Source of the DNA: Agelas oroides
Taxonomy: Eukaryota > Porifera > Demospongiae > Agelasida > Agelasidae
Length of the DNA stretch: 64,000 nucleotides
Assembly (NCBI GenBank): GCA_949130485.1
Contig: OX422189.1
Coordinates: forward strand, 5,843,920-5,907,919
Reading direction: 5' to 3'
In this document: one piece after another, positions 6,146 through 49,139 of the stretch
Numbering within the stretch: position 1 is the stretch's first letter
How the letters are laid out: each line of letters opens with the position of its first letter
Notes under the pieces: generated by a model
What the model was told of the DNA's origin: nothing
The model's input: the letters and a program-made list of their open reading frames with translations, nothing else
Database searches by the model: none
Translations under genes and position numbers: made by a program

Positions 6146-9100
6146 TTAGCTGGTAGTATCAGTCGTACCATGTTCAACTTTCCTCTGGTTCAGTTTAGCC
6201 TTTCTCGCTTCTGATCCCAGTTCATTGGTGCTGACCACTTCTCGCAGGACCCACTCCCTGGTAGGAAAATCATCACTAGATGTCTGGGACTGCACTGACT
6301 CTGCATAGGGGAGGAGGAGAGAGGATTGGGAAAATTAGTTAATCACATACTGTAATAATTACATTTGGGTTAGACGGGTGGTTTAGTTATATTTGTTTAC
6401 CAGGTTTCCCCATTACCGGCTAAGATCTAATGTATTTGATAGTGTTTGTACATTTCTCAGCAGTGAGGTAAAGAAATGTGTTGCTATAGCAATGGCTGTT
6501 GTTAGCTTGCTACTTCATTTCATACATGGTGGGAGGGTCAGTACACATCACTCATGGACTTATTAATATCACATTCAGACCGTCAATTTTGCTATGAAGT
6601 GTGCATATACAGTGTATCAGTGAGCACACAGTACAGCATGATGTGCAGTGTAAGCTCTACTCACCAAACTCCATGACAATAGTTTCTGCTTTCTTTTTGT
6701 GTTTATCAGCTGACTTTCCCCGTTCAAACTTTGGTGAACCCCCAAATGTAGTAGTGTGGATTAGACCTGAACAGGCATGGCAGGAAGTAATACTGTGTCC
6801 AAACCTTGCTCCTGTACCTTCAGGAAGAGTGAGCTGGTGAGAGAAAAGAAAACTGACCGGTGGATGTAGGTCCATAAATTACAGTAATGTAGTCAGCATA
6901 GCATCCTATGTATGAATAGTGTATAATTATTTTAGCTAAAACCTGAGGCAATTTTGACACCAGGACAATAAATGTCACCAGAGATTCGCAGTCTAGATTC
7001 ACCAACTCACTGTCGCTTAAAATATACTGGAAGCTCTGCTCATTTATTTACCTGAGTCTAAACTACATATTTAGTGTTTTGGGGCCGGTGCATGCAAGCA
7101 GTAGCCTCGTTCCCAGGCCTACCCCATTTTTATCTTCCGTTTGCGTTCACAATAATACATGGTCTTCCGCTCCCGTGTATTATATATTGTGAACGCAAAC
7201 AGAAGGAATGAGGCTATGCAAGCAGTAAGGCTTGTAGAGCTTTGACTCTACCAATATTTCAACAAATATTCCTAAGTGAGTGCGCTTTCCCCAACTTTTT
7301 AAGTACCAGACCTTCCTTCTTTCCTTACCAACCATCCATAGCCTCCATTGTTGGATTCAGTTTGCCTCAGAATCAATGTGAAACTGTTTAATGTTTGAAA
7401 CCCCCAAAAAATTTCTGCGAGGAACATGCCCCAACACCCCCAAGCTTTTCCTAAAAATGGGCTTGTAGCAGGTTTCCTAGACACTGGTTACCAAACCTAC
7501 ACGATACTAAGTGGCTTGCACATCTGTTGTGTTTGTGTGTAGCTTTCTTTCTGATATTTGGTCTACATACCCTCCACTTCCCTCACCTCCTTCCATTTCC
7601 CTGAAAGTACATCCAAGATCCAGGCATCCTTGAGGGTATTTCTATCATTATCCAGTCCTCCAGTGACCAGCAACTGGGGGTTGTCATCATTGTAGTTCAG
7701 GCAACATGCTGCATGTAACTCTCTCTCCACTGGCCAAGGGGCACCCTCGGGTTTCTCCAGCTTGGTCCACTCCTGCGACAAGTGACCATCAGTAGCAGCA
7801 AGTTAGAATACATCTCATTTATGACAAACAGATTAAAATACACCTATAAACACAAATAAATAGCAGAGAGTCAGCCTGAGAAATTTCATAAGCGATTGTT
7901 TGACAAACTTCAAAAACTATAATAGGCCAATTGGGTTAGTTAATGCTGAGAATTTTATAAATTAAGGAACAAATTGCCATATTATGTCAATTATGCTGTT
8001 GTATGCGTACAAAGGGCCAGTATATGTGTAGTTCTTGATTCTGTAAGTGGCACAATGCAGGATGTATAACAATCAGCCTGATTGCCTTACCATTCAAGTA
8101 TACTTCAAACCCACAATCTACAGTTAGTACAGTATAGCAAAACCCACTAACAGTGTGTGTCATAAGTTGGTAGAAAGTCAGTTGTGTACACACACACAAT
8201 AGGAAGCTTGTGCAATGTCGAAAACAGTTGCTGCATGCACCAGAAAAGCATTAACAAACTATAAAATTGGATTGGAGCTTTAGCATCAGATTCACAGCAG
8301 AGCTGAGAATGCCCCTAATAATTTTTGACCTCATGAAGGTACAAGTTGATGTACCATGGTAACACATTGCAAACATGTTAAGACAGTCTGCAAAATGACT
8401 ACCGTAGATCTGGAAATTTTCGTGTCATAAAATTTGCGTGTTTTATTATTTCGTGTAAAAATATTTTCGCGGTCTAGGACACCCACAAAAATTTTTTACG
8501 GTACTAAATAGATTCTATGTTCCAGGTTTAATGATCTGGAACGAGACTACGCACGTCAAGAGTACGACTAGTACCACACAGCCGTTGGCGAGATACTCAC
8601 GTGCGAAAGGGTACCCAGGAATACTGTATACATGTGCTGTGGCTGTATCGGATACAGAGAAAGTTGTCAGGCGTTTGCCATGAGTCATCTGCGGGTATCG
8701 AACTCGTACAAAATAACTAGCTAGCTGTGCTAAAACGAAGAGCCCTTTTGCACAAAACAACTATAGCTAGCTGCATTGTGAAACCGTGTGTCCAAGATGT
8801 GGTGACCATAATGATTTATATCGATATCGTTGTAAAATATATTTCGTGTTTTTTATTTTTGTGGTTTACGCAAACCATGAAAATATTTTTACGACGAAAA
8901 TTTCCAGATCTACGGTAGGTCACTTGTGTACCTATTTCAAAGATTGCTGTACAGAGTTGTTTACTTTACATATACAAACACAAACACAAGTGCACTCTCA
9001 TCTTACCATTGACCAGAAGTCAATGATGTAGACATCATTGACTCTTCTACGTCCTGGTTGATACCCACCAAACATCACTGCCATGTGGTCGTTAATGGCA

Positions 9101-10825
9101 GTAAATGAGAAGAAGGAGCAGGGAGGTGGCCGAGGTCCAGTAGTGGGAGGGGAGGACCATTCACCTGCAGAAGGTGAAGCAGTACAGTCAGTGTTTACTA
9201 ACATTCCCGGATAGCAGCCTACAGTATTCTTCCTGTGACCCACTCAGGTTACACATAGTTTAGGATTACTAATGACACAGTGGCTGCACCTTCAGTGTAC
9301 AGCCAGCATTTAATATGTATGGAATTCTAATTACTATTGTTTAGTCTAACAATGGATGTCAGTGGTATTCATTGTAAAGTACAGTAAACTGTAGTACTTC
9401 TTAACCCAATGACACCCATTGGCGGTTTCAGAGCTGCCAGGTTACCTGGGCAGGCGACATGTGTGGCGGAGCCGCTATGTCACAGCCGAGTTTCCGTATA
9501 AGCAATAACCACAATTGACCAGAATTTTACCCTGGCAATGCCCGGGCTTGCCCGAGTCTGGAACCACCACTGATGACACCTTAGAAACATACATTCAAAG
9601 TTTCTGGACATTATAAAATGACTATTATACTCATATGTATCGTCTCAGTGTCCACACCAATTCTGTTACTGTGGCTTCCCACCCACCTGTGGGGAGGGGT
9701 GTGATGGTACTCCTTGTGTAGAAATGTCAGAACACATGTAGTCTACTCTCCACACACTACGACAATACTGACAACTGATACCATCACCATAACACACAAT
9801 GTCACAGTGTTCTGGTGAAGCATTGTGGCTACAAGGTAGCCATGTGTGTACTAGCCGCTTTCCAGGGTCCGCTCATCTCCCCTCCAGTGCTACATAGCTC
9901 ACATTGTAGCTACTAGGTAAATAAAACTTGATACTCACTGTTACACACCACTTCAATAAGATGGGTTATGTTACATCACACTCCCACTCTCAGCTGACGG
10001 AAGATGATAAATATGTACTGCCACCGCCAGAGTATAATTTTGATTGTGCCAGCAACATAGTACATGTGTATAGTACTGGTCCCATTCCAGGGTTTGCATG
10101 GCACCTCATAATGTGTTTGAAGTTGTGATGGAGTACTCTGTATATTTACTTCCCATGACTCCGTGTGTTGACATGTATCTACTTATACACACATTGACCA
10201 CATTTCTCAGGAGCCTTCTAGCTATAGCATATATAAAAGTGGAGGAATACACAGGAGCATATGAGAGTGACAAACTTCACCCACCATTTTTGAGGTTGAA
10301 TAGATGAAACTTGTTAGTCCATCCTCGTCCATCAGAGAACTTGTCATGCCGCAAAAATCTTTCTTTAGCCTTGGTAGAATTATTCAGCCTACCATATCCC
10401 GCAAACACTGCAAGATTTGTTGTACCAAGAGCTTTGTCATGATAGGCTGCAATTCCACATGCAGACTTCGGCATTGGTTGATCTGCAGGATTCTTGTGAC
10501 GGAGTTCCTCCCACTGCAGTGTCACTCTAGATCTATTGAGACTATGTAGTGCATTATAGTAAGAGCTACCATACCTACCACCAAAGTGGTACAGTGTCTC
10601 AGACACTACTGTACAGGCACAAAAATAAAGTCCGGGGGGTGGGTCTTCTGTTGCAGTTTTCTTAGCCCAAGTCTCATCAAAAACATCAAACATTCCTATT
10701 TCATATTCAAGTGTTTTTCTTCCACTTTCAGAAAAGTCTTGAGTCAAACCTCCCCAGAGGATGGAATTTTCTCCTGCTTGGGCAGCGCAATGCCAAGCTC
10801 GTGGTAACGGTTGATACAGAGCCAT
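6146..10825 (-). CDS. Kelch-repeat protein (kelch-only paralogue)
   Basis: Five exons: 10825-10285, 9164-9007, 7772-7587, 6833-6665 and 6300-6146 (TAA at 6148-6146). Lengths 541+158+186+169+155 give 1209 nt, so 402 residues with every phase closing. Kelch signatures recur (WHCAAQAGENSILWGG, LYHFGGRYGSSYY, AVMFGGYQP, LLVTGG, TTFGGSPK), predicting a beta-propeller that binds protein partners. Exons 1-4 match the kelch-kinase gene at 40392-46023 in length, phase and residues. The last exon starts like that gene's linker (SDDFPTREWVL) but stops after about 50 codons, so the coiled coil and kinase are missing. The ATG at 10825 is the first in frame. An acceptor-like TTAG at 10856-10853 allows a 5' non-coding exon. 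A downstream fusion to the Roc gene by alternative splicing is not excluded. Confidence 0.85.
7102..7216. mobile_element. MITE of the TAGCCTCG family with exact 9-bp TSD
   Basis: The 115-bp element starts TAGCCTCGTTCCCAGGCC and ends in the inverted AGGCTA. Its long arms (CCGTTTGCGTTCACAAT and complement) form a near-complete hairpin. Both flanks are tgcaagcag (7093-7101 and 7217-7225). It sits in a kelch-gene intron. Confidence 0.9.
8402..8915. mobile_element. Mariner-like non-autonomous element (TA target site)
   Basis: The terminal inverted repeats begin CCGTAGATCTGGAAATTTTC. The element is flanked by TA on both sides and is about 514 bp. There is no transposase ORF. It lies in a kelch-gene intron. 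The superfamily call rests only on the TA duplication. Confidence 0.75.
9417..9572. mobile_element. hAT-like MITE with 8-bp TSD
   Basis: The 156-bp element has imperfect terminal repeats (CATTGGCGGTTTCAGA versus CAGTGGTGGTTCCAGA). Exact flanking duplicates are atgacacc (9409-9416 and 9573-9580). An 8-bp TSD with CAGTGG-type ends is usual for hAT. It has no coding capacity. Confidence 0.85.
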
Positions 10826-10860
10826 ATCTTGAGGTTTCAGATGAGTTGGATCCTAATACA

Positions 10861-13830: not shown

Positions 13831-13870
<40 letters not shown>

Positions 13871-14255
13871 AAAAATTTTTGTTTATCCATTATTTCTAGT
13901 TACTAGCCTCAAACACATGGTCACAATGGGAGGAAAAAACTTGTCAAGGCATGCATGAAGACCTTATCACAACATTGATCTGTACCACATAAAACGTCAT
14001 CAGTGACAAGGAAGAGATTGCTCAAATGAAGACATAAAAATCACTTCTACTCTGTTAGTAAACAAGGCTAAATACATAACTAAGTATAGAGTAGTTGCTG
14101 CATTGTCAGCCAGCTGATGGATATACAGAAACTCTGAGTTAACAAATTCCAGAATTAATGACGAAACAAAGTATAGATTTAAAGTACAGATATGAAGGCA
14201 AAATGAACACAGTAGTATATGTACTACTGCAAAAGGCATAGGCTGAACATGATGT
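10861..14255. other. Intergenic region between the kelch gene and the 3' end of ECT2
   Basis: No supported gene. It holds a promoter-like GC motif at 11493-11504, short inverted repeats ending in TAGTCTCA-like sequence (about 12612-12665 and 12725-12780), AGTTTTAGTTT-rich low-complexity sequence (about 12960-13440) and a run of about 35 C at 13833-13868. Short plus-strand ORFs (11593-11879) have no recognisable domain. Confidence 0.5.
11493..11504. promoter_or_regulatory. NRF1-type palindromic promoter motif
   Basis: TGCGCACGCGCA fits the NRF1 consensus YGCGCAYGCGCR exactly. It lies about 670 bp upstream of the kelch start codon in a locally CpG-containing patch. NRF1 sites are common in metazoan housekeeping promoters. 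Use here is inferred. Confidence 0.4.
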
Positions 14256-15535
14256 TCAAACCTCAGTACCAAGGTTTGTGAGGTCAGCAACACTAAAAGA
14301 GGGCAACCGACCAAGGGCAGGTCTTTTGGCTTTCGGTGTGCGGAGGGAACAGACTGGAGTAAAGGTCAAGGTTGAGGAGGCCATAGAGGTGTTGGGAGAA
14401 GTCTGGAGAGGGGATGGTTTGTGTGAGTGTTCATATGAGCCCTTTGAATGGCTGTGTTACTTGTATTGGTACATACATGTATTTTGTAGTACTATCAGGT
14501 ATTAGCATTAAGCATTTTATGACAGATGAGCGTGCTGTACCTGCCATGTGCTGCAAGTGGTTTGTACATTGTTTTATTGTGCACCTAATGAACACAGTCT
14601 TGGGAGTAAGAGATACACCTGGTATACAAACAGCTTAGCATAAAGACCACTTTGATCTGCCTAAGCAACATGCCTCAGATCAAAGCTGTATGTTCTACAG
14701 GTATTGCTGGTGCAAATGGACTGACAGTGCTGCATATGTGACTTTGTGTAGCTCCTTACCAGTGAAATACAGTCAGCAGAAGGTGACTCTGGTGGGATTT
14801 CATTTTCTTCTCCAATTCCATGCAGATTCAGATGCACACTGGGAGGAAAAACAAACTGTTTAATGTCTGTAACCCATGCAGGTTTTCAACTTTGGATTTT
14901 GCCCCCAAGCTGTGAGAGATAACAGAAAGCCTGGGTTCAGGGCTATATAATTTACTACCTCATCAAATTGCTAACACCTCAACAAATGGTTCACGTAGAA
15001 CTAAATTATGTTTTACATCAGTGATGTTATGTACTGCAGTTGTCACATAACCAGACCCTGTGTATGTGACAGTTATAGTGCAGAAAGTGTCATCTGCTCT
15101 CACTAGCATGTAAATCTTACCTTACAGAGGAAAGTTTTCTGCTCTGACGTCCAGAAAATGCTCTACGTACCTTTTTTCTTGCCCCACTACAGGTGAAGGT
15201 AAAAGACTGTAAATTACCACCTGGAAATTAGCATCACTTAGTTATATGAACTGTACTGCTTACTGTAATGCTCGTTTAAGTGTTGTTGAAGAGACAGTTG
15301 TTGACTTGCATATGGAGCTCAGCATGTCAGCAGAGCAGGAAGCAACAAACCGCTCCTGAAGACAGAAACAAAATCTACAATGCAGCACAGTGTACACAGA
15401 ATGCTCCCTCTACAACTGTAGCATGCTATTAAGATTTGGAAGGTTATCAACATTATCTGCAGTAGCTATCAATTTCATTCCTCCTCCTCTATCTATCTAT
15501 CTATCTGTCTGTCTGTCTGTCTGTCTGCCTGTCTG

Positions 15536-15583
<48 letters not shown>

Positions 15584-15584
15584 C

Positions 15585-15667
<83 letters not shown>

Positions 15668-21147: not shown

Positions 21148-21204
<57 letters not shown>

Positions 21205-24200
21205 TTCCCCTACCTTGGCCTGGTAGAGTGTTTCATCAGCGCAGGCATCAATCTGGATGCTCTCCCAGAACCACTGCTGCTTTACCACGAGTACTCGTGA
21301 GGGGGTAGGAGGGATGTGCTGTGGCTCCACTCTGTCTGCCACCACCAGGTGGGTCACACTGGAGTCATCCAGAGTGACACTCACCGCACCTGTGAATGTG
21401 TGTGTGTGTGTGTGTGGTGTGTGTGTGGTGTGTGTGTGCGTGTGAGTGTGTGTGTGTGTGTGTGGTGTGTGTGTGGTGTGTGTGTGCGTGTGAGTGTGTG
21501 TGTGTGTGTCATTTCAGTGAGCGCCACATTGGACACAGAAGGTACCATAATATGATTACCCAAGCAAACCCTAGCACACGTACCCAACATTGCATGACTA
21601 CAGGTTTTGGTCCCTTTAAACTCTCCACCCGGAGTCCACTACAGAAAGGGCGGGACCACTCTCTGCCTAAGGTTTGCTCAGAAGACTCTAGCTCTTGGTT
21701 TGGCCATAATCTCTACATTGTAGCTACACAAATGGGAGGATGGACTTATGGGGTTACCCTGATTTATAAATAATTTGGGGGATGGGCAAAATAGGAAGTA
21801 ATAAATGCGCGAAGGACAGGAAACGAGGCTAAGCCAACCCCACACAGTCACTCACCGCTGTCAGTTCCAATCTCCCTCATGTGTTGCGCCTCCTCCTCTG
21901 AGAACCCATGGAAGGCAATGTGGCACCCTGTGAATGGCAGCTGCTTATACTCCATCTGTGGAAGCATGAGGAGTGAGGGAAGACATAAAGGACAAATTGT
22001 TCTATGAGTTCATTCTATGGATGCATACGTAGAAAGTTTGGGGGAGTTAGTAGGGGGTACAGATCTACATATGAGTCCGGTGAGTGCCGTTTCTGATGTC
22101 CTTCTCTGTGCATTTTTGGGTTTCTCTCTCCTGGCTGCCCGGGGCACTAAAAGTGAGTTTGTTCCCTATGAACTTGGTATAGACTGAGTTTGGTGTAGTC
22201 GAACTGTACCAAACTCTCCATCCGAGTGTGTTCGGCCTAAATTTAAGATTATGCCTTGTGAAGCAAAGGGTTGGGGGGATAGTACTTGTACAATTATTGC
22301 TCTGTGGGTGCTTGGGAATATGGAAAGGGGGTAGAGACCTACATGTACATATCAATGTATAATCTACAGTGGAACCTCTCTTAAAGGACACCTTTGAAAT
22401 AAGGACACCTGGTTAATCAGGACACCTGACCGAGTCCCAACTTTATATAAATACGTATTATTCTCCCCCTGAAATAAGGACACCTCACAAAACAGGACAA
22501 TTATTTTGGTCCCAAGGGTGTCCGTATTAGAGAGGTTCCACTGTATGTAGGTACAAGCATCTCACCATATCTGGTCCTGTAGCAGAAATGTCACTGTAAG
22601 AATGGAGAGATTGATACACAATGTGAAGAGTAGTGCATACAGCTACAGTACTTACGGTACAACATCAGGCCACTATATATGTACATATACATCTCCCAGT
22701 TTCCCACTTGTGCTGATCACATATAGTCTCACAATGAGTCTCTGTGTTCCCAGCAGTTACGGATCCAAGCTTCACCCATGATTGGAGTTCCAAGGCCTAC
22801 TGCAACCTACAGTGAAGAGAGCCAGTCACCACCCAATACATGCACGGCCTTGTGTATGGGTGTAAGTAGCCTTCAATCCAGAATTTTTGTCACAGAGATT
22901 TCTCATAGCCTAGGATAAAGCTATTGCTGGGACAGCAACTCTGGGTTTGAGCTAGCCTCGTTCCAAGGCCTGAGAATGAGGCTCGGTTTGAATCTTTGAG
23001 AGTAGGAACATGTTACATGCATCCCTGTACTACCTCTGGGTTTGAGGTGCGTGCTACTGTACATGCATGCATGATTTCAGTTACTACTAGGCACTAACCA
23101 TGTATATGTACGTGTGTACAGTCAGTACCTTGTACTTGGATCCACTGACAGAGTAAGCTACAATGTGGGTGACACTGCTGGTGATGTCCTTGCGAATGCT
23201 GGCCCCCATCAGGTGGGCCAAGCTGCATAGACCATGCTGCAGGCAAGGGGAACATGGGTATATACACATGTACAACCGTCAGGAGCTTATGAACCACGTT
23301 TGCAGGGCTCATAGGCTCCTGCATTGAGGAATGCACACAGGCAGGATTGGAGTGTACATGTCTGTACTTGCAGTGCATAAGCCCTGAAAACAAATATGCT
23401 GTATGTATGTAGCTGGAGATTGAGTGAAATATGTCATACAAACAGTTTGTTTATAAACTCTTGGTAATACTTATGGTGTAAAACCTAATGAAGAGATGAG
23501 TGTATAGCTCATATACCAGTTCCTCTTTATCTTTGAATCCAGTGAAGCAGATGACAGTTCCTTCCATTGTGCAAGAATAAACTGGGCGAATACTGTTTGG
23601 GAGGGGCTGCAGGGAGGGAGGGAGGGAGAGAGCCAAAGGAAGAGAGGAAGGAAATGTATGAAGTTGAGGTTTATACATGTATGTATGCATTCAAATACAT
23701 ACCTTATTCTTCTCGGCACATGTGAACACACAGGGTGGACCAACAATTCTGAAATGAAAATACATATACACGCATGAGTACTGCATACACAAGCATGTAA
23801 ACTGTGCATTCTTCTCTAGCTACATGTAGCGGTCATACTGTCTGAAATGCGTCCTGCATAACAAGTGATTCTGTGTAAAATCTAGGACTTTTTTTCCCAG
23901 GGAGATGTGGTTCATGCATAATACCACCTCATTAGCTGCACCGGGGTGACCACTCCCATCTCATGCAAGAAAGGCAGTCAGTTGGCTGGCTTTATCCGTA
24001 AAGTGGGATGCGTAGCAACATGCCAAAGGTAGCATCTCTTCATGCAGCCTTCCCATTAGCCTCGTTCCCAGGCCATTCCCGCCTCCAGTTTTTGATCGCT
24101 TGCAGTATGCAAAAACAGAGGGGGAAGGCCTGGGAGAAAGAGTCACGTGCATGACGTCAGGGTAGACATGAGGGGGGCGGTGCCCGACGAAGAATCTCGA

Positions 24201-27200
24201 GGTCCTTCTTGTAATATCTTGTCCAAGAACCTGAGACTGTAACGTTAGAAAGACGGCATCAATACACCTCGTTGTTTGGTAGACTCGAGGCTGATCAATG
24301 CAAAGTTTGTGAGTTACAACGATCGGGCACCGCCCCCCTCACGTCTACCTGACGTCACGCACGTGACTCTTTCTCCTTGGCCTTCCGTTTTTGCATACTG
24401 TAAGTGATCAAAAACTGGAGGCGGGAACGGCCTGGGAACGAAGCTACCTTCCCATATTACTTTTCACTTGTTGTCTCATACCCATGATGGAGGTTTTTCA
24501 GTTTGGGTATGAGACTAACATCCCAATAGCATAAAATTGCTGGAGAAGCATATAAAACTGTTTCAGCCATTTTTGAGTATACGTGACTGTGCTAAGGAGG
24601 AATAATGGCTGGAATCATTAAACTGTCTGAGTGATATTAATTTAATTGACTGACATGACAGATCATTTTACCCTTCATGCACTGGAGTAACGAAGGATTC
24701 AGTATCTTGAGACAACACACCTGAATTTTCTAGAATGAAGGTAGTCGTACACCTCCCCTTCAAACTGATCACACACAAACACCATATCACACTCGTCTGG
24801 GATGTGGTCAGGAATGCTCCGCCCATCCTGTGAGTAGCACACCACCAGCCCCAGGCCCTGTGGGTGGGTGGATTACATGGTATATGCAGCATGCACAAGC
24901 ATACTGTAATCTCCTGAAAATAAGCTCACCCTCTTTTATTGCAAAGCGTCATTTTGTCCCCTCAAAAGTACGGCACATGTGGCTAAGGGTTCTATCTAGG
25001 ATTTTGAGTTTGGGGGGGGAAGCTGTATAAGCATTGTCTAGGGGGGTCTAGGGGCATGCCCCTCAAAATAAATTTGGGATGCAATCTGAGAGGTAAAATT
25101 ATGCCTAGAACTGAGGAAAAAATTGGGGGGGAGGCGGGGGCTTCCCACTCCCCCCAACTACATGTAGATTGAACCTTATGTAAGTTAAATACAGTATAGC
25201 CAATCACATACAGTGTTTACATGCATACAGCTATAGCCTTCCTCCCTTGTCACATAACATATTGCTGGGGAGGAGGCCAGAAACAAGGCCATACATGTAC
25301 GCAGTAATTATTCACTAATTGTATGCAAATGCCTGGTAGCATACAAATAGGCCATCAAACTGAGCCATATCTTGCATTCAAGTGGCCTAGCAATGAAGTG
25401 CTGAGGCTGTTGGTGCAATTCTCACAGTTTGTGATTGGTAGCATTATTTCCTACATGTAATTACTGTAATAGTGCGTGTACACGTTCTAAGTACTGTAAT
25501 ATAGTGCCAGTGTACATGTACATGTACACTGATGTGTGCATTACGATCTCTAACTGTGCTCCATTCACTGTTGAAACTGTCTGTCTCTATGGATGAGACA
25601 TCTTGTCTATACACAGCAACATTAAACCCGATTCACTGCCAAGTGTACAGGACACATGTTGCCTGGTTACACTAGGTGTGAGGAGATACAATCACCTATA
25701 CAACAAAAGGAGGCAACCTTCCATTTGTAACCGGAGCCAACAGTATGTCAATGCACTTACCTCAAGAGCAGCTGCTAATTTGGGTCTTTCATTGTCAGCG
25801 ATAATGCAGGCATAAGTCTTTTCATCTGTCAGTGAGGAGAACAGAGCCGCAGCATGTAAAAACACACAATAAGAGTAATGAAGATGCTTGACAGTGCTAC
25901 ATAATACATGTATGTGTGAACCCCAATCATTTTAAACTGTGGTGCAGGGAGGGGTTAGCCAACACATTATTTGGCTACTTAGTTCTCTACCAACAACCTC
26001 AAGGAAATTGCAGGACTGTTCAATCTGTTTTGTATAGATCTGTTACAACAAGGTATAGCTTCTAGGGCATGATCTAGGTGTTACAAACTGTAGGACCTGT
26101 AGTAAACGGTGAGTTATAAAACTACGGATGTTCGACTTGACTCAGGGTTTCATACAGGATTTTGAGTTGGGGGGGAAAACAGGATGGTAGCAGGATGATA
26201 GTAGTGTGCGAAACACATGCGTGCCTACTAGGGGGGTCTGGGGGCATGCCCCCCCCCCCCCCCCCCAGGAAAATGTTGAATTTATATCCTCTCAGATTGC
26301 TTCTGACGCAATCTGGGGCAAAATTTCCAAACATTTTGATGACACATGCTTATGTTCAATAACATGTAAATAGCTAATATAATAACCATACTCAATTTCA
26401 AGATTTCTGGGGGGGGGAATTCCAGCCCCCCCCCCCCTCTGTATGAAACCCTGTTATTGCTAGGCAGAACTCCAGACATACTATCTTACTCAGCTTGACC
26501 AACAAGAAACTAGCTAGCTTTTAAGAGTGACTCAATAGGGAGTACAAATTTGAACAAGCTTCCCACTCACTCTACATGTACGTCCACCTGATCTCATTCC
26601 CGTGATGAATGCTCTGAGTTGTTTTCATCACATTCTACTTCTTGTGAGCACAAGCCAATAAACAAAGACTAGCTTCATTCCCAGACAACATTTTTCGTGC
26701 CCGCCGGAAAAATGGGTCTGGTCAACTGCCTATTCCATTTTTATTGAAGTGTGTCGGAATGCTGGAGCATTGCTCTTTCTGCCGTGTATAGACTAGGCTA
26801 TTCCATCTTTTGAAAGGAGCATGAATAGGCTGTCTAGGAGTAGCCTCATCCCCAGGCCCCACCTGAAAATCGGGGGAAAAGGGCCTGGTTACACTTGCAA
26901 AAATTCCCGTACATGTGCTGTGTCAGCTGTCTTTGTTTGGAGTAGACGAATCACGTTCGTCCAATACCAATTACTAAATTCTTGACACATGAAAGTGGTA
27001 GACTCGTTCCAAGACCATTTGAAAATGGGAACGAGGCTAGCATACTTTTCATAAACCTCAAATTGCAGAAACTTAGAGTGTAGTTAGGCTTGCTAGGCTA
27101 CTACTCTTGCCTCACAGGATTTGCCTGTAGTCGCTCCGCAGCAAGATCTGTTCTCTACCGCCATTGTCAACAGTAGCTGGCTACCACGTGATCACGTAAG

Positions 27201-28022
27201 GCATGTAATTGTTACATAATATGTTGACTCAGCACATACGAGAAAGTTTGCAAGTGTGACCAGGCCCCTTTCCCAATTTTTTGGGTGGGGCCTGGGGACG
27301 AGGCTAGTCTAGGAGTTTGCTGTTTACTAGAGTGTTTCTTGAATTCACAATCCAGTTGATCTGATGTCATGGTGATTCAAAATATTGGAACCAAAACGGT
27401 ATAGGCAGTTTACCAGATTATTTTCCTGCTTGGCAAAGAGTAGACTAGGCCTGAGACTAAGGGGAGGCCTGGGAATGCGTCTATGTACAGTATGTTAACC
27501 TGATACGAGGTTGAGAGGGACTATAAAACAAACTGGTAGTCTTACCCTCCATACCACATCCAGCTGACGTGGTGTGGAGGGTCTGGGGATAAGACTAGAC
27601 AGCAGGCACCTTCTGTTGGGAGCAGTAGAATATATTTTCAGGTCTTTGAGTGTGTCTTTGTTGGAAAGACACCTTAATTAGATTGGATATGGTAAGTATT
27701 CTCCCTCTGTATGCTAGCTGTTCTGGGAAGGTCATACTCATTATTTTGGAGTTAGGAATGTCCACCAGTGCTTTTACAAACAGGTCTCCCAAAGCTTCCT
27801 GGCTAGATCTAACACTGTCACTGGTCTCAAGTTCAACACAGATGTAAACTAACAGTCAAAGACTGTGTTAAGCTTTTTATCCTTCAGCTTGCCTTCAGAA
27901 ATACCTTTCGTGTGATCACTGTCTTCAGGTTCTTTCTCGAAAACGACAGGAACCAGATACGACTGGGGGCGAAATGGCTCATACTCACTCTCTTCTGTGG
28001 CCAGAGTGAGGGTAGAATCCAT
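14256..28022 (-). CDS. ECT2: ECT2, RhoA guanine-nucleotide exchange factor of cytokinesis (25 exons, 849 aa)
   Basis: Exons: 28022-27905, 25825-25761, 24857-24721, 23748-23703, 23606-23517, 23236-23129, 22806-22733, 22593-22566, 21955-21856, 21389-21214, 21042-20913, 20645-20512, 20335-20216, 19895-19827, 19694-19584, 18757-18661, 17989-17908, 17630-17552, 17119-16997, 16636-16513, 16105-15951, 15355-15264, 15186-15121, 14838-14760, 14402-14256. They total 2550 nt with every phase closing; human ECT2 is about 880 aa. Order: N-terminal BRCT-like module (about 40-122), BRCT1 (IRKDITSSVTHIVA, 131-216), BRCT2 (VVKQQWFWESIQIDA, 223-314), linker, DH (SELLQTERNFVNIL to FEVLRDVEGCP, 378-588), PH (588-722) and basic tail (KKVRRAF). 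It loads GTP on RhoA at the central spindle. BRCT1/2 normally bind phospho-MgcRacGAP/Cyk4. The exon 1 donor is uncertain: GAGA|GTGAGT, G|GTATTT or an extra exon near 27847-27730 all fit the phase. Confidence 0.93.
15495..15671. repeat. (CTAT)n microsatellite in ECT2 intron 21
   Basis: About 175 bp of TCTA/TCTG tetranucleotides lie between exons 21 and 22. They create a long meaningless plus-strand ORF (LSIYLSIY). Confidence 0.95.
17325..17373. repeat. Perfect 21-bp hairpin in an ECT2 intron
   Basis: Arms 17325-17345 and 17353-17373 are perfectly complementary around a 7-nt loop. No transposon-type ends or TSD were seen. Confidence 0.9.
18546..18593. repeat. 18-bp hairpin (one mismatch) in an ECT2 intron
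   Basis: Arms 18546-18563 and 18576-18593 (CACCCAGCTTTCC core) pair around a 12-nt loop. Confidence 0.85.
19985..20237 (-). repeat. Five-copy tandem duplication of the ECT2 exon 13 donor region
   Basis: A unit of 53-59 bp contains the last coding bases of exon 13 (GTTCACCAGAGACTAGTG) plus its 5' splice site GTGAGG. It recurs with donors near 20215 (authentic), 20158, 20105, 20048 and 19989. The copies carry small substitutions (one reads GACTACAGACTAGTG). Four decoy donors therefore lie inside intron 13. Confidence 0.88.
21121..21202. repeat. (AC)n microsatellite just inside ECT2 intron 10
   Basis: The tract starts about 11 nt beyond the exon 10 donor (GT at 21213-21212). It reads as (UG)n in the pre-mRNA. 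Confidence 0.95.
21395..21510. repeat. (GT)n microsatellite at the 3' end of ECT2 intron 9
   Basis: The tract directly abuts the exon 10 acceptor (AG at 21391-21390). In the pre-mRNA a (CA)n tract stands where a polypyrimidine tract is expected. An internal duplication of GTGTGTGCGTGTGAGTG is visible. Confidence 0.95.
22377..22543. mobile_element. Pogo-like MITE with TA target site
   Basis: The 167-bp element has inverted ends CAGTGGAACCTCTCTTA / TTAGAGAGGTTCCACTG flanked by TA. Internal copies of AAGGACACCT occur. Ends of this form are typical of pogo/Tigger elements. It lies in ECT2 intron 8. Confidence 0.8.
24057..24446. mobile_element. TAGCCTCG-family MITE, 390 bp, exact 9-bp TSD
   Basis: TAGCCTCGTTCCCAGGCC lies at the left and its complement at the right. 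Long arms match over more than 100 bp (GACGTCA, GGGCACCGCCCCCC and others). Flanks are ccttcccat at 24048-24056 and 24447-24455. It is in ECT2 intron 3. Confidence 0.92.
25015..25160. repeat. Interspersed repeat fragment related to 26143-26452
   Basis: It shares with the 26.1-26.45 kb element the phrases GGATTTTGAGTT, CTAGGGGGGTCT and GGGGCATGCCCC. No clean termini were found. It is in ECT2 intron 2. Confidence 0.6.
26143..26452. mobile_element. Non-autonomous element with CAGGGTTTCATACAG ends
   Basis: The 15-bp termini CAGGGTTTCATACAG and their exact complement bound about 310 bp with poly-C and poly-G tracts. The ends resemble hAT termini, but the flanking 8 bp are only partly alike, so the superfamily is unproven. 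It lies in ECT2 intron 1. Confidence 0.65.
26841..27306. mobile_element. TAGCCTCA-family MITE, 466 bp, exact 9-bp TSD
   Basis: The termini TAGCCTCATCCCCAGGCCCC and complement are flanked by gtctaggag (26832-26840, 27307-27315). Subterminal arms (CACTTGCAAA/TTTGCAAGTG) also match. It lies in ECT2 intron 1. Confidence 0.9.
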
Positions 28023-28196: not shown

Positions 28197-28291
28197 TAGC
28201 CTCGTTCCCAGGCTTCTCCGCTCCGGAACGCGAAATTGAAGTTGTAAACGCGTGTACAATTCGCGTTCTGGAGAGCCTGGGAACGAGGCTA
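28197..28291. mobile_element. TAGCCTCG-family MITE, 95 bp, imperfect TSD
   Basis: TAGCCTCGTTCCCAGGCT to AGCCTGGGAACGAGGCTA forms a hairpin. The flanks tccggaact and ccaggaact match at 7 of 9 positions. Confidence 0.8.
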
Positions 28292-28317: not shown

Positions 28318-28699
28318 TAGTCTCGTCCCCAGACCAAATTTTTCGCGCGCGCCCTGCGGACTCGTCGAAAAATAGGGTCTGGACACTTTCACTACGAAAA
28401 CTGGGGCATGTTTACATACGGCGGTCAGTAAATTGGGTAACTGTAGGTGTTAATCACATTATCAGCTACCAGCAGCGTTTGTTTTGGCGCCAAAAAATTG
28501 GCAAGCTGGCTATTTGTGATGACGCATAACGCAATTTACTTTACCTGAGCAATCTGATTGGTGCGACAACATGCCAATACGCTTGTATGATTACGCCCCA
28601 GTTTTACCAGTGAACGTGTCCAGACCCTATTTTTCGACAAGGCCGCAGGGCGCGCGCGCGAAAAATTTGGTGTCTGGGACCGGACGATGTACGAGACTA
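28318..28699. mobile_element. TAGTCTCG-subfamily MITE, 382 bp
   Basis: TAGTCTCGTCCCCAGACC lies at the left and GAGACTA at the right. Long arms include AAATTTTTCGCGCGCG and CCAGTTTT. cgattctg is duplicated on both sides (28310-28317, 28700-28707). A related copy is at 42293-42649. Confidence 0.85.
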
Positions 28700-29225: not shown

Positions 29226-29571
29226 TATTTTCTCCCCAAGGACCTAGAATAACTCCATGGTGGGTGTCATTAACTTTATGCCTTGGCTGATGATCACGTA
29301 AGCCAGACCAAACCAACCACAGCACAGATTGTGTTCAGTGTTGTGCACAAGGAAGGGTCAGGTGGCTTCTCAGAGGGTTTGTGTGTTTGTGGAATGCATT
29401 CTGAGGAAAAGCTGGTTGCTAGCTTTTGAAAGAGAACTCAAGTTTATAATTGGTACCTGCTCACTCTTTAGTTAAACCCACCCTTTCACCCAACAGTGTC
29501 TGCTGACACAAGCCAAATACCTAATTGGGCTTACTCCAGATTTTTAATCAGTAATATAATGTAGTCTCGCA

Positions 29572-30591
29572 GGGCCGACCCATTTCCGCAAAAGAAGAGA
29601 AGGGTCTGGTGAACTGCGTATACAAGCCATGTCCCACTGGAATGCAATTAGCTGGATGACGTAACCAGATATCAAATAATGCACACTTGAATTTACCTGT
29701 TGTGGAGTAAGCACGCTCCCCGAGATGTATAGTCGAAGTGTTTTTACAGCTACTGCAGTAGTGGAAAAGATGCCCCAGCTCTCTTTTGTTCACCATTTTC
29801 AAGATGCTATTGCTACTCAGTCAGTCGTGTAATGCATCATGTGACAAAATACTGCACTGTGATTGTACCGCACTGTACAGTGCGGTGGGACACAGCTTGT
29901 ATACACATTTCACCAGACCCTTCCTAGCCTCGTACCCAGGCCGTTAATTAGGAAAAAAGGCCTGGCAACTTATCTGAGTTCAAACTGTTGACTTCCGCTG
30001 CACTGAAGTTGTCAGTACCAATCAGATTTCAGAACGCTTCACATGACAGTTGTACAGAATTTTAATTGCGTCATAAATGCATCACAGTACAGTATTATAC
30101 CCCGTGCCGTGGTACCGCTAGTGCTTGGAATGACGCTTTTGTTCGAACTCCTTCCGCTGACTTGTGTGCAACAACTACAGTGCCTGCGGACAAAACGTAA
30201 AAAAGGACCTGTTCGAGAGTAGCAGTGTCAGGTACCAGTTTAGTACTTACTGTCAGTCGGGCACATCGACATCGGTGAGCGAGAGTGAGTCTACTGCAAG
30301 CAGTTCGTCTACAGATGACAAGTAAGACAGTAACCATCCAATAAAAGCCTGTAACGAGTCTGGCAATAACAACGCGCTTGCACAATTACGAACAGTCACG
30401 TGGCTACGATTAAATATCACATGCATTATCCAATATTCATGGCTTGTATGGGTGCAGCTGTAATCTTTTTCACGTCACATCCGTATACAGTTTGAACCCG
30501 GGTAAGTTGCCAGGCCGTTTTTCCTAATTAACGGCCTGGGTACGAGGCTAGACCCTTCCCTTTTTGCAGAAGTGGGTCTGGCTTGTGAGAA
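29572..30591. mobile_element. TAGTCTCG-subfamily element split by a nested element
   Basis: The left arm (TAGTCTCGCAGGGCCGACCC to about 29640) and its complement (29880-29934 plus 30551-30591) are recognisable through GAAGGGTCTGG, GTATACAAGC and TGTCCCAC. The right end is interrupted by the element at 29935-30550. The outer TSD is not evident. Confidence 0.65.
29935..30550. mobile_element. TAGCCTCG-family element, 616 bp, exact 9-bp TSD, nested
   Basis: The ends TAGCCTCGTACCCAGGCC and GGCCTGGGTACGAGGCTA are extended by long arms (GTTAATTAGGAAAAA, GCCTGGCAACTTA). Exact gacccttcc lies on both sides (29926-29934, 30551-30559). It sits inside an older related element. Confidence 0.92.
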
Positions 30592-32755: not shown

Positions 32756-32758
32756 TAT

Positions 32759-32838: not shown

Positions 32839-32839
<1 letters not shown>

Positions 32840-34254: not shown

Positions 34255-34927
34255 CAGTGGCGTATCTAAGGTAGGGCCTGGTAGGGCCTAGGCCCTACCA
34301 ACTGCTGCAAATGCCCTACCAACTGGAGGCCTACCGTCCGGCTTTCTCACTTACTGGAGCTACACAACCGCCAGTGTAACAGTGCTGTGCGTACGTAGCT
34401 TCATTCGAGCAACCGCCAGGCACGCTGGGCTTCTCTTCGTCTACTGAGGCCATACCAAATTGATTTTATGTTTCACGGATTTCTTAGGTCAGAAACATGA
34501 CCCGGTAGGCAGGCAAAAAAATAAAAATAAAAATGACCAAACTTCTCATGAATTTAATTAGATACCACTCAGCCACACAAAACTGCTCGCCATCCTCCAT
34601 TCTTGCCACGTGGTGAGTACTTAGCCTCGTTTCCAGGCCTTCGCGCGTTCGTCACTTGCAGTACGATAATTCGTACTGCTAGCGACGAACGCGCGCAAAG
34701 GCCTGGGAACGAGGCTAGTGAGTACTGGATTACGTGTACATATTAATTGCATTTTTACATTTTTTTTTCAATTTTCAAAAAAAAGACCCGGCCGGATCCG
34801 TGAAACGAATTTGGTATGGCCTGAGTACGACAGACATGTGTCTACAAACCACGCCTACCCAAGTACATGTCTCGTTCCCAGTCTGTACTTGTGCCCTACC
34901 AACTGTCAGCTTCTAGCTACGCCACTG
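34255..34927. mobile_element. hAT-like non-autonomous element inside LINE ORF1, 8-bp TSD
   Basis: The ends CAGTGGCGTATCTA and TAGCTACGCCACTG bound the element. Flanks are exact cattgtgg duplicates (34247-34254, 34928-34935). It is 673 bp with no transposase. The CAGTGGCGTA terminus is a common hAT end. Confidence 0.93.
34622..34717. mobile_element. TAGCCTCG-family MITE nested in the hAT-like element, 9-bp TSD
   Basis: The 96-bp hairpin runs TAGCCTCGTTTCCAGGCC to GGCCTGGGAACGAGGCTA, with GCGCGTTCGTC arms. Exact gtgagtact lies on both sides (34613-34621, 34718-34726). Confidence 0.95.
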
Positions 34928-39470: not shown

Positions 39471-39865
39471 TAGTCTCGCAAACCAGACCCAACCAACCCC
39501 AGTGCGGATCGCTTTCAGTATCACGCACGGGGAAGGAAGGGTCTGGTGACTCTCGGTAGGTTTCCGTGTGCAAGTGGAATGCATTAACGCGGAAAGTCAC
39601 GAGGTTAATATTCGATAAAGCCGTTAATTAAGTGGGTGCTATGAGCGCTAGCGTGGGTAACGAACTTCGCCACTACGGTCTTCCGATTCAGCGGTTTCAC
39701 ACGTCGAGATTAGCTCAAAGTTATGTGACCGTAGCCAATCAGATTGTCTACGCGCCAATCGCGACGTAACACATGGAAACCTACCGAAAGTCACCAGACC
39801 CTTCCCCGTGAGTGATACTAAAAGCGATCCGCGCTGGGGTTGGTTGGGTCTGGCTTGCGAGACTA
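39471..39865. mobile_element. TAGTCTCG-subfamily MITE, 395 bp, exact 9-bp TSD
   Basis: TAGTCTCGCAAACCAGACCC lies at the left and its complement at the right. Arms exceed 100 bp (AACCAACCCCAG, GAAGGGTCTGGTGACT). Exact ggagggtct lies at 39462-39470 and 39866-39874. Confidence 0.93.
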
Positions 39866-39898
39866 GGAGGGTCTGGGCACGAGACTATCCCAGAACGC

Positions 39899-40268: not shown

Positions 40269-40391
40269 GTACACGTGTGGAGAAAAAGCGCAATTTTATA
40301 TTTTGGCATGTGAAATGTGGTAGCTAAAGCAAGTTGCAAGAAGGGAGCATTGTCATTTGTCCCACAGCCAAGCTGAAAACTAGGGGAAGTA

Positions 40392-43300
40392 TCAGCACAT
40401 GCTAAGTTCAGTAATGATATCACTAGCAGAGGGTCTTATATCCTTGTCCTCAACTAAGCACTGTCGAATAAGTGCCACCATATCAGGCTGCTGGATGGAT
40501 CGAATCAAACGCTCTCGATCATCAACATCGGGGAAATAAGCTGTACACATCTCCACCAGGAGAACTCCGAAACTGAAGATGTCCATTTTAGGAGACTGTA
40601 GAGGGGGAATGTTGGCCTCTGGTGCAGCATATACAGGGCTTCCCGGTCCAACTGTTCGTAGATTCTCAAGAAGGTTGACTGAACCATAGTCAGAGACTTT
40701 GGCTTTCCAGCTGTCATTTGGTTGAGGTTCAAGTAGAACATTTCCACTGCTTACATCTCGGTGTATCAATGGGGTTGGTCGCATCAGGTGGAGGTAGTTG
40801 AGGGCTCTAGCAATGTCTAGGCTAATGGTGGATATCTGCTGGCGAGGAAGTGGTTCTCTTGCTCTCTCAAGGACAGCTCGTAGGCTGGTTGGCATCAGCT
40901 CAGTGAGGATGATCAGTTCTCCCTCCAGGGTGGCTCCGATGAATTGGAGAAGGTTCGGGTGGCGGATTCGAGCTGCCATGTTCATTTCTCGACTGAAAAT
41001 ATTTTTCCAGTAGCCATAATTCAGTGCTCCATACAGGCATTTGGCAGCAATACGTGCACCACGAAATGTAGCCACTTTCACCACTCCCCATCCTCCCCTT
41101 CCAAGTTCCTCCTCTGTGAGGTTGATCTCATCGCTGTGCACCAGCCATGAAGGCTCACCTTTCTCAGGTTCCTCTCTTGCTCTCTGTTGGGGTTCATGAG
41201 CCCTCCTTTCTGCCTCCACTGCTCTTTGCTCAGCCTCTTGCACTCTTTGTTGGAGGACCTGCACTTGTTCTGTTGCCTCTTGTGTGCTTTGTTCAGCAGT
41301 AGTGACCCTTTCCTGTAGGGCTCTTTCTCGGAGTTGTGATTCTTGTAAGGCTTGCTCTAGACCTTGTTTATCAGCTTGCGTCCTTTGGAGGGATTGCTTT
41401 GCAGTCAGGAGAGATTGGTGGAGTGCTTGGCAGGCATATTGTAAAGCCCCAAGCTGTGTCTGAAGATCTCTGACTCTTTCTTCAGCATCTTGAACCCTCT
41501 GGTCTAGTGGTTGAGCTTGTCGACCAGCTTCTACCTCTCGAATTGAACTCTGCTGCATGTTGACCATCTTCTCTCTTATTCTCTGGACAGAGCCCAGCTG
41601 GCTGCTGTCAGCCACACCCACCAGTACCCATTCCTTAGTGCGGGGTCTGTCACCAGATGGTGGTGACCAAACTGATTCTGGGAAGGAGGGGGTGGAGCAG
41701 TAGTGTTGTATTAGTTAACTAGCACTAAAATGCACTAGTAATCCTCATCTTGCTAACTATATAGTTATTATTTACTAAGAGATCTTACAATTAATTAATG
41801 ATTACAAAATTTTTGTAATAACTAAGTTCTTCTCCTGTTCTTCATTATTGAGCATGTGTGATGAGGCGCTTGTATATGATGTACATGCACAGAACCATAT
41901 TAATATTTCTTATGTAAACATTATGCTCTATGGTTTTTAATTACAAAAACTGGTGGATCAGTGCTTTGGGCTTAATCCAAACTAAAAGTGCTGTTTGATT
42001 AAACTAACTAAAATTACAGAAGGGATCTCTGATTAAACTAAAGACTAATATGTTCCATAATTTTGTTAAACTAGAACAACTTTGTAGAGCAGTAATGAAA
42101 TATTGAGAAGAGGGTGGAAATATGCACAACACTAGGATCGAGGTGCAATATGTATCAACACAGTTATGGGTAGTTGGTCATTTTGGTCACCTAAACATTG
42201 CTACTACACAGCCTCACAACAAGAGTTTTCTCTATAATAATTATCACTATGGCACTTCAAGTGACATGACATACTATTGTCACACTACACAATAGTCTCG
42301 TCCCCAGACCAAATTTATCAGTCGCCAACTCGCCAAAAAATACCTTAGGGTTAGGGTTAGGGTTAAGGTTAGGATTGGAAACCTTCACTAGGAAAACCAG
42401 TTGACATACAGCAGTCAGTAATTATAGGTGTTAATTACATTTTCAGCTACCAGTAGTGTAAGGTTTGGTGCCAAAAGATTTGCAAGCTGGCTATCTGTGG
42501 TAGTGTATAACCACCCAATTTACTTTACCTGAGCAATCTGATTGGCTTGACAACATGGCAATGTGCTTTAAAATTCGGGACCAGTGAATACCTTATTTTC
42601 AACAAGGCTGCAAGGCATGTAAGAAATTTGGTATCTGGGGACAAGGCTAAGTACACAACTACAAAGAAGTTGACTGGTACTACAGAACACTCTGATGCAG
42701 CAGTGCTGGCATCAACACAAAAAATTCCTGAGTAAATGCATTTATGGAGGAAGACATCAAAGGTTTAGTTTATAGTAAACTTTATACCAAGGGTTTTTGC
42801 ACAGTAAGAAGAAACAAACCTAAGAATGAGGCTAGGATGTATAATGGTGCCTCTTGTCCAAATTGATTCTGAGCTTATTGTCCTCATTAGTCAAATTAGT
42901 GATAATACAATATAGGAATAAGCCACTAATAGCAAACAAATGAACGTTGAAATGTCATTCGGGTGTTCTGCTCACCAAAGTCCAGCACAGTAGTTTTGGC
43001 TAGTTTTGGTACAGCACCAAGTGACTTTCCCCACTCCCACTTTGGACATCCCCCAAACATGGTGACTTGTGTCTGCCCTGGACCCAAACTTAAGGCAGTA
43101 GCAGTGTGATACATTCGAGGCTGTGCACCTTCAGGAAGAGTGACCTGGGGAGAGATAAGGAGTTGAGTGTTGCTTTGAGCCCATGGTAAAAAGTTCTGCG
43201 ATTGAGCTTGGATCTGAACCCAAGACCTTCTGATTACTAGTCAGTCATTCTTTCTACTCTAAGCCACTTGGACACCTGGCAGAGGAGGGGACGACAAGCT

Positions 43301-46023: not shown

Positions 46024-46380
46024 TCTAGAGGGAGGAGGATAATGACTGTTTAGTCATTTGTAGGTGACTGACACTGTACCCAGTAAACTAGCAGGTGAAT
46101 GCTAAGGACTGGGAATTACTTGAGATTGCACAATCACCAACTATACATGATTATAAATACAAGAGGTAATTAGACCAATCAAATGCACAAAATCCCTCCC
46201 ACTGATGACAAAGAAGCTTTTGAATTACACAATGTTTCACTGTTGTATAGTGTAGCATGCTCCACATGACTGTAATAACTGTCAAGTGGAAGTTACTTCA
46301 AGATCTGGTTTTGCTGAAGTCGTAGAGACCAAAGGTATGTCTTGCTAATATTGCAACTATCTACTTCACTCCACTGCTAC

Positions 46381-47454
46381 TAGCCTCCCCTCCGCCACGC
46401 CTGGGTATGAGGCCACACTAGCTACTAGCCTCCCCTCCGCCACGCCTGGGTATGAGGCCACACTAGCTACTAGCCTCCCCTCTGCCACGCCTGGGTATGA
46501 GGCCACACTAGCTACTAGCCTCCCCTCCAACACGCCTGGATACGAGGCCACACTAGCTACTAGCCTCCCCTCCGCCACACCTGGGTACGAGGCCACACTA
46601 GCTACTAGCCTCCCCTCCGCCACACCTGAGTACGAGGCCACACTAGCTACTAGCCTCCCCTCCGCCACGCCTGGATACGAGGCCACACTAGCTACTAGCC
46701 TCCCCTCCGCCACACCTGGGTACGAGGCCACACTAGCTACTAGCCTCCCCTCCAACACGCCTGGATACGAGGCCACACTAGCTACTAGCCTCCCCTCCGC
46801 CACACCTGGGTACGAGGCCACACTAGCTACTAGCCTCCCCTCCGCCACACCTGAGTACGAGGCCACACTAGCTACTAGCTTCCCCTCCGCCACACCTGGA
46901 TACGAGGCCACACTAGCTACTAGCTTCCCCTCCGCCACACCTGAGTACGAGGCCACACTAGCTACTAGCTTCCCCTCCGCCACACCTGGATACGAGGCCA
47001 CACTAGCTACTAGCCTCCCCTCCGCCACACCTGAGTACGAGGCCACACTAGCTACTAGCTTCCCCTCCGCCACACCTGAGTACGAGGCCACACTAGCTAC
47101 TAGCCTCCCCTCCGCCACACCTGAGTACGAGGCCACACTAGCTACTAGCTTCCCCTCCGCCACACCTGGATACGAGGCCACACTAGCTACTAGCTTCCCC
47201 TCCGCCACACCTGAGTACGAGGCCACACTAGCTACTAGCTTCCCCTCCGCCACACCTGAGTACGAGGCCACACTAGCTACTAGCCTCCCCTCCGCCACGC
47301 CTGGATACGAGGCCACACTAGCTACTAGCCTCCCCTCCGCCACACCTGGGTACGAGGCCACACTAGCTACTAGCCTCCCCTCCAACACGCCTGGATACGA
47401 GGCCACACTAGCTACTAGCCTCCCCTCCAACACGCCTGGGTACGAGGCCACACT
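46381..47454. repeat. 45-bp minisatellite, 24 copies without indels
   Basis: The monomer TAGCCTCCCCTCCGCCACRC plus CTGGGTACGAGGCCACACTAGCTAC repeats exactly every 45 bp from 46381 to the unit at 47416. Variants differ at a few positions (CGCCAC/CAACAC, GGG/GAG/GGA). The minus strand stays open as a 15-residue repeat because 45 is divisible by 3. The only start is a non-ATG, so coding is unlikely. Confidence 0.95.
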
Positions 47455-47459
47455 GTTAT

Positions 47460-49139
47460 GTACAAATATAGAACAGCACTCCCTAATCAATAACCATGGT
47501 CTGCCACACCCCTCCTCCAGGAGATACCATGCAGCACTGCCAGCACATGTAATCTGGGCGTGGCTAGATTATTATACGTGCATGTAGTGAGAGCGTGACA
47601 CAACTGGAAAGATCTATGGGCTAGCTACAACAGAAATGGCACTGATATACAGGTATCTAAGTAGGCAGAGTCCCCAGTGTTGAGCAATAAACACATTAGA
47701 GCGTTTGAGTTCTTTTAAGTCCTTAAATGGGGATCAACTAGATTGCCTGGTGAACTGAGGGGCCGACTTAGGATCATTCGAAAGGCTGAAGGCACCTGCT
47801 TAGACCGTACAACAGTTTTGCACTTTATCTTGGTATACACGACTCCAGCCATTAGGCGATACCAATTTGATCTTTTGATTCACGAGTATGGTGACTCTAT
47901 TATTAGAAAGAAGGATTTATAAACGTAAATTATTTTATGACGTCCCAATTAATCACGTGAGGTGCTAGGCACTGTATACAAGATGTCTGACGCGTGTATC
48001 CCTTCAGAGTTGTGGGTTGGTGGGGAAGTTAAATGAGGACAAAACAAGCCTGGTTCCTTCTACGGTAGTTTCTGCGAAGGCTACGAACACTTTGGGGTCT
48101 CAGATCAGCTCTGCGGTGAAACTGTGGAGAAAGTGACCACATCGAGCTCGAGCAGGGCATTACTTATAATGAGATTCATAGTTACATTTATGAATATAAT
48201 TCAACCTACCCACCCACTTTTTCTGTGAACCCTACTCGTGAATCAAAACAAATTTGTATTGCCTTAGCCTGAATAGTGTGTATCACGAGTTGACAGAACA
48301 TCATAGGTATTCCAGCACAACCTTGTTCTAGTCTCGTCCCCAGACCCCACCCTCTGCACGAGACTAACCTTGTTCTCAGGACTTCCAACCGTCCAGCTTT
48401 TGTAGGAGGGGTGGGAGCTGTACGGTCGGGAAGGCCTCCTGGGAACACTGAGGCAATACGCTGTGTTCCAGACCATAGTAGACTACTGATACGTACCTGG
48501 ATGAGAATAATCCGATAGCCCAAAACTAAGGGTTGGATTGGGTCTCATTACTTTCACGCCATTTCATCTCCCCGGTCACATGACCCACCGAAGCCGCCTA
48601 CCATATAGATGGTTTCAAAATGTCAATTAAGCGTCCCACTTCCGGACGGCAAACGCGCGATCAAGAGGCAGCTGTACAGCGGACCTTTCACCTTGAGGGA
48701 AGCAGCTTCTTTTATCTTTCGGTACTAATGGTAAGGACTCGATGTAGCACTTATTAGCCTGTATTTTGCACGCAGCTGCACTAAAACCGAGAGGAGGTTG
48801 GAAGCTGGTAATTAGTGGTACGCGCGAGGTAGCTACGTGAATGACGTAATCATACGGGCTGCCATAGAGATATAATTCCATATTTGCGAATGCAGGATAA
48901 ATTATATATCTGTGTGATCCATCACGTGAACATTTTTTTATGAATGCAAAAAAGAAGCTAAATCTTTAGCTAGATGGAGATGCGTGCATGCATGAGCACA
49001 AATTCCTGTCTGATTGAAGGTTGCAAATGAGCTTTTGCTCCTGAATGATGATAGCTAACTCTAAAATCAGTTACTGTGCCACAATTGCCTGTTGTCTAAG
49101 AACAAAAATGGTCTGCCTTGGGTTTACAACTTCAAAAAT
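47460..49139. other. Gene-free region between the minisatellite and the satellite
   Basis: No supported exon. It contains the 38-bp mini-element at 48329 and a CpG-rich patch (about 48560-48860) without recognised coding. Confidence 0.5.
48329..48366. mobile_element. 38-bp minimal TAGTCTCG element with exact 9-bp TSD
   Basis: TAGTCTCGTCCCCAGACC at the left and CACGAGACTA at the right are separated by about 10 bp. Both flanks are accttgttc (48320-48328, 48367-48375). Confidence 0.9.

Follow-up and report, generated by a model that had tools for sequence, protein, structure and literature searches.

A very numerous MITE family with mostly 9-bp target site duplications and two end types in the sponge Agelas oroides

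Related transposon families

The FB/NOF elements of Drosophila have a foldback structure, 9-bp duplications, and long terminal inverted repeats (TIRs) made of tandem repeats. The sponge elements described here are like them in foldback structure and in a 9-bp target site duplication (TSD). Members of the Mutator/Foldback family Tm1 of root-knot nematodes have TSDs of 8 to 10 bp, mostly 9, and share with the sponge family composite TIRs of variable length, TSDs without a clear consensus, and many MITE-like copies (PMC3169594). Tm1 differs from what is seen here in that it has a single putatively autonomous copy, a Phantom-type Mutator-like element (MULE), whereas none was found here, and in that its TIRs have asymmetric 7-bp outer motifs and repeats of ∼14 bp, in contrast to the symmetric TAG...CTA ends of two types in the sponge; copy number here is also far higher than the 53 complete Tm1 elements analyzed (PMC3169594). 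The MULE Muta1 of Aedes aegypti, whose transposase was assayed in yeast, similarly produces duplications of 8 or 9 bp, which show no evident preference for particular sequences (PMC5225508). The CMITE elements of Acropora corals are likewise short and non-autonomous and also occur in tandem arrays, but they have a conserved interior, less conserved TIRs, and a seeming link to piggyBac-like transposons, whereas the sponge family has conserved ends and variable interiors (PMC2872659).

The sponge elements are real, well defined, and very numerous, and belong to a kind of element that is already known; what is new here is that the C or T type of the ends is concordant at both ends of an element, and mostly with the inner site too. 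Among the literature matches listed, there was no related paper for the end strings, no report of such elements in sponges, and nothing useful on the smallest MITEs, and the words "transposable," "repetitive," "MULE," and "Mutator" are absent from the main text of a sponge genome paper (PMC12465263).

Window elements, target site duplications, and copy number

The window, the whole 64,000-bp stretch of DNA that was analyzed (G000:C7:5843920-5907919), carries elements bounded by an end with the form TAG-YCTCG-nn-CCCAGRCC, called C type or T type by the base at position 4. The C-type elements include two short ones, at 7102..7216 (115 bp; 9-bp TSD TGCAAGCAG on both sides) and 34622..34717 (96 bp; TSD GTGAGTACT), and three long ones, at 24057..24446 (390 bp; TSD CCTTCCCAT), with a TIR of ∼60 bp and an inner GGCCTGG, at 26841..27306 (466 bp; TSD GTCTAGGAG), and at 29925..30550 (626 bp; TSD GACCCTTCC); the TSD of a further C-type element, at 28197..28291, matches at 7 of 9 bases. 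Long T-type elements are located at 39471..39865 (395 bp; TSD GGAGGGTCT), adjoining a second T-type right end at 39870-39887, at 28318..28699 (382 bp; exact 8-bp TSD CGATTCTG), whose subfamily is common with the MITE at locus L034, and at 42293..42649 (TSD 8 of 9), the interior of which has 76% identity to part of 28318-28699. A 38-bp T-type element or remnant lies at 48329..48366 (TSD ACCTTGTTC). The element at 26841-27306 is nested within an older one (∼26670-27459) resembling L005:1501-1910, and 29925-30550 within an older one beginning at 29562; such nested insertions among family elements support their mobility. All seven of the exact 9-bp TSDs listed in the sequence-only reading stand, with one left end moved from 29935 to 29925, and its three weaker loci hold at the matches given above. 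The window also contains kinase, kelch, and reverse-transcriptase ORFs, a COR-A-like ORF that falls under the family cut-off, and a short TTAGGG array at 42345-42373, within the 42293-42649 element.

A 45-bp minisatellite with 24 copies is present at 46372..47454, and each unit looks like a 35-bp mini-element, its ends resembling those of the family, followed by a 10-bp spacer, as if an element and one TSD had been amplified; the array is open as a 412-aa frame. Elsewhere in the genome, exact C..A ends (named by the bases at positions 4 and 16) recur at 23-bp steps or approximate multiples in C3:19170015-19170671, a small satellite of the end motif, and a T..G end recurs every 15 to 21 kb in C1:1253839-1432866, which is perhaps a large segmental tandem array.

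TSDs were scanned in the window and in a further 200 kb (20 loci, each of 10 kb and placed at round coordinates) of the 259-Mb, 141-contig genome by comparing each loose TAGYCTC left end with all right ends up to 1.5 kb away, with the minisatellite excluded from the window. Among the resulting 1,992 pairs, perfect 9-mer flank matches number 19, as against 0 of 39,840 shifted-flank controls (20 shifts per pair), and matches with one and two mismatches number 6 (0.55 expected) and 12 (3.5 expected). Together with one exact 8-bp and one exact 10-bp TSD, these give 21 TSD-supported elements of 38 to 626 bp, occupying at least 2,508 bp in the window and 2,001 bp in the 200-kb sample.

Two further sets bear on the TSDs. 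In an independent set of 20 pairs taken from coordinate lists and chosen blind to their flanks, 13 have an exact 9-bp TSD, three have one mismatch, and four have none, and one of the 13 (L149) is flanked by the same sequence as L008 and probably represents a duplicated locus. The 29925-30550 subfamily has numerous copies with 96 to 99% identity across 71 bases, and ten of these (614 to 632 bp, on eight contigs) were selected from 40 listed copies; five have an exact 9-bp TSD, two of which have common flanks and are one duplicated locus, two have an exact 10-bp TSD, one has a 9-bp TSD with one mismatch, and the remaining two have either a disturbed right end or no right end in the stretch taken. 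From these tallies, in the part of the genome examined, the duplication length is consistent and larger duplications do not explain the matching flanks, so the proposal of a dispersed MITE family with 9-bp duplications is upheld, with TSDs of 8 to 10 bp and a mode of 9. Insertion with a 9-bp (8 to 10) stagger is shown.

The 18-bp end is present in 10,957 exact copies in the genome (5,342 forward and 5,615 reverse) versus 0 for the reversed pattern. When up to 4 mismatches are allowed, 57 ends are found in the window with the minisatellite included, compared with 0 to 1 in each of five shuffled versions and a single one for the reversed pattern, and the 200-kb sample has 95, compared with 12 for the reversed control. 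Extrapolation from the 200 kb gives about 100,000 recognizable ends per genome, making this a very numerous family.

Outside this genome, the exact end occurs in 19 stretches of a prokaryote genome collection, where ∼30 are expected by chance by our own arithmetic, and a partner end with TSD is absent in 18 of the 19. The other, L058, has both ends, forming a 147-bp hairpin with the exact 9-bp TSD GTATGCACC on each side; it lies on a 6.2-kb contig whose title names a Cycloclasticus symbiont of a sponge of the Poecilosclerida, with a longest listed ORF of 248 aa, and we infer that this contig is sponge DNA that was placed in the bin of the symbiont. A search of G000 that leaves out very common words, and in which no candidate was scored, did not recover the L058 element, so that the end and the TSD are what the hosts are shown to share. 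The 18-bp end has no occurrence in IMG/VR.

Anatomy and the smallest hairpins

The 21 TSD-supported elements fall into two size groups, 13 of 38 to 147 bp and 8 of 327 to 626 bp. By ungapped comparison, the arms are 41 to 101 bp in 11 of the 21 and shorter in the other 10, and 6 of the 13 short elements are inverted repeats along almost their entire length, as are, judged by eye, those at L058 and L090; the long or full-length inverted repeats of foldback elements are therefore a feature of part of the copies only. TIRs built of tandem short repeats, as in FB/NOF, were not found: no tandem arrays were reported inside the seven exact-TSD window elements, and none in ten aligned TIRs.

The sequence-only reading had held that interiors differ completely between copies and that only about 18 terminal bp are shared, and neither statement survives, the second because of the 41- to 101-bp arms and the first because there are subfamilies with similar interiors. 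Element 39471-39865 and L026:3496-3876 have 92% identity over 399 aligned positions, L010:2817-3202 and window 29562-29921 have 85% identity, and 7102-7216 resembles an element in L011 (84% over 58 positions) and one in L013 (74% over 118). By eye, a CCAATCAGATT-like stretch is common to the interiors of different subfamilies (28318, 29925, 39471, L010, and L027), and is perhaps a promoter relic of an autonomous ancestor.

We lean toward the view that the hairpins of 38 to 56 bp are longer insertions that have collapsed in place, with the TSD kept, and that they are immobile as such. A 56-bp perfect palindrome with an exact TSD (L090) has no second copy at up to 3 mismatches over its inner 44 bases, and three 52-bp copies lack a TSD and lie in similar flanks, which makes them part of a larger repeat; these cases give no sign that the 52-bp and 56-bp hairpins move as such. 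Short hairpins such as L015:9171-9261 and L036:554-603 consist of the TIRs of long subfamilies with the interior missing, which also points to collapse of long copies. Arguing the other way, L010:1015-1105 and L013:4074-4169 have different TSDs and 84% identity over their full length, and the group formed by the L011, L013, and 7102 elements recurs at sites with differing TSDs, but these recurring short subfamilies are of 91 to 147 bp and leave the case of the tiniest hairpins unsettled. At L036:554-682 there are two tiny elements, of 50 and 71 bp, seemingly inserted in succession, and the exact TSD of the second includes the last base of the first.

End types and the mobilizing transposase

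The elements are likely non-autonomous cut-and-paste MITE/foldback elements moved in trans by a MULE transposase. Movement in trans follows from none of the 21 elements being long enough to code for a transposase, and the duplication length makes the Mutator-like superfamily the most likely assignment. A transposase encoded elsewhere would bind the TAGYCTCG, CCAGRCC, and GGYCTGG sites, cleave at TAG...CTA, and insert the element at a staggered break, giving 8 to 10, mostly 9, duplicated bases; some long copies may then drop their interior to leave TIR-only hairpins. MULE transposases are present in the genome, with at least 119 PF10551 matches (150 of 194 candidates scored). The hAT elements have 8-bp TSDs, and the mode here is 9. 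The same MITEs might instead be mobilized by another superfamily leaving ∼8 to 9 bp, either Merlin, KDZ, or an undescribed one; we regard this as improbable, even with 23 Merlin and 34 KDZ transposase matches in the same genome and no MULE found with the family ends. At the one of 23 Merlin loci that was examined, L077, the gene is not flanked by TAGYCTCG ends, and the inverted repeat there is TCGGAGATG.... TSDs of 10 bp are not known to fit Merlin or KDZ. They do occur here and fit MULEs, which have TSDs of 8 to 11 bp (PMC6446971), a range that takes in all 21 elements (19 of nine, one of eight, and one of ten). Against the MITE and MULE reading are the four of 20 blind-chosen pairs without a TSD and the 53 of 84 ends that lack an exact inner GGYCTGG.

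In the part of the genome searched, there is no autonomous copy with TAGYCTCG ends, and the long MULE-coding copy with the same ends that had been suggested as a check was not found there. The one promising candidate, at L034, spans 5,330 bp, with T-type ends enclosing MULE ORFs and a TSD matching at 8 of 9 bases. However, in ten other loci with a like MULE match, compared on both sides, the similarity starts at 268-276 of this interval in 8 and also stops at 5,226-5,240 in 6, in each case inside the family ends (the remaining loci are incomplete or, as in L056/L057, without similarity), and the MULE is bounded by ends of its own, YGGGATTCGCTTTTTTCACA, and by a separate 8-bp TSD, TATGTAAA; L034 is therefore a different MULE inserted in a MITE of ∼378 bp. 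This MULE, L034:2432-7384, is multi-copy with the same ends and an 8-bp TSD. MULE ends were made out for two groups only, and neither matches the family: group B has YGGGATTCGC with an 8-bp TSD, and L036 has another long TIR. Among other candidates, L012:453-1901 (TSD 7 of 9) was rejected with a longest internal ORF of 123 aa, and four long-distance pairs of 1.0 to 2.2 kb were checked for their flanks. Two of these have no matching TSD, a third, C5:7902375-7903514, has one that matches at 8 of 9 bases, and the fourth, C2:20409759-20410762, is flanked by an exact 9-bp TSD, but its insert is of the group-B type, with ends like those of the L034 MULE. Telomere-like repeats are also present in the insert of the C2 element. 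Separately, the 2.6-kb element at L037:47-2652 has long inverted repeats that begin with GAATCTCGTTATGTACAGAC and is flanked by an exact 9-bp TSD, CAGTACGGT; it sits in a family MITE, and its end is vaguely like the T-type end.

The two end types proposed from the sequence alone do exist. In all 21 elements the two ends carry the same type of base at position 4 (12 C and 9 T), and positions 4 and 16 are associated over the 10,957 exact ends with an odds ratio of 73: 977 are T..A, 384 T..G, 323 C..A, and the remaining 9,273 C..G. Within the end, GYCT and AGRC form a small dyad, and CCAGRCC is the inverted form of the GGYCTGG site found in many long copies, which is ∼35 to 71 bases inside the end where it is present. 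Of 84 ends with up to 2 mismatches, 29 carry inner sites of their own type alone, 2 carry those of the opposite type alone, and 53 carry neither, meaning that exact GGYCTGG is absent within 92 bases of the end. Ten TIRs were hand-picked for alignment, including T-type (both ends of 39471, and L026) and C-type ones (24057, L003, 34622, L015, and L023), and they have in common a subterminal stretch resembling ATCRCTTNCAGTA, the base being switched at every site that is present. Without its first base, and at up to 1 mismatch, this stretch is found at 18 of 167 ends versus 1 of 156 control windows. Three of 21 elements are inserted in a GGYCTGG site of the family itself (∼0.2 expected), yet none of 4 extra cases and none of 16 TSD pairs in the new set is, and targeting of the site was rejected; there is one additional case in C2 and none, by eye, in the ten 29925-type copies.

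In long TIRs the three sites GYCT, CCAGRCC, and GGYCTGG may have switched jointly between C and T at both ends, which might reflect two sister transposases, each moving only its own end type, although we find this somewhat doubtful. That a single transposase moves C and T ends and tolerates either base, as the sequence-only reading had it, is an alternative that we consider somewhat less likely than not: it accommodates the discordant exact C..A and T..G ends, the TSD-supported element L027:3421-3466, whose two ends differ at position 16 (GGCC versus GACC), and the TSD length common to both types. It sits less easily with the concordance of position 4 in all 21 elements, the strong association of positions 4 and 16, the location of some discordant ends in tandem arrays, and the 29-to-2 excess of inner sites of the end's own type, and two matched specificities fit the type concordance at least as well as one transposase. 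The aligned subterminal stretch, however, is in only 1 of 36 T-type ends recovered by the scan pattern, so the case for a joint switch comes mainly from a single T-type lineage set against the C-type lineages related to it. Descent of two lineages accounts for part of the end-type pattern with no need for two transposases there, and we prefer the reading in which one protein would read all of the related sites.

The family is a source of hairpins and, seemingly, of some minisatellites. Should C and T ends prove to have separate transposases, their matched switch would be a direct test case for the coevolution of transposase and TIR, and the joint switch would record a change in transposase specificity within one genome.
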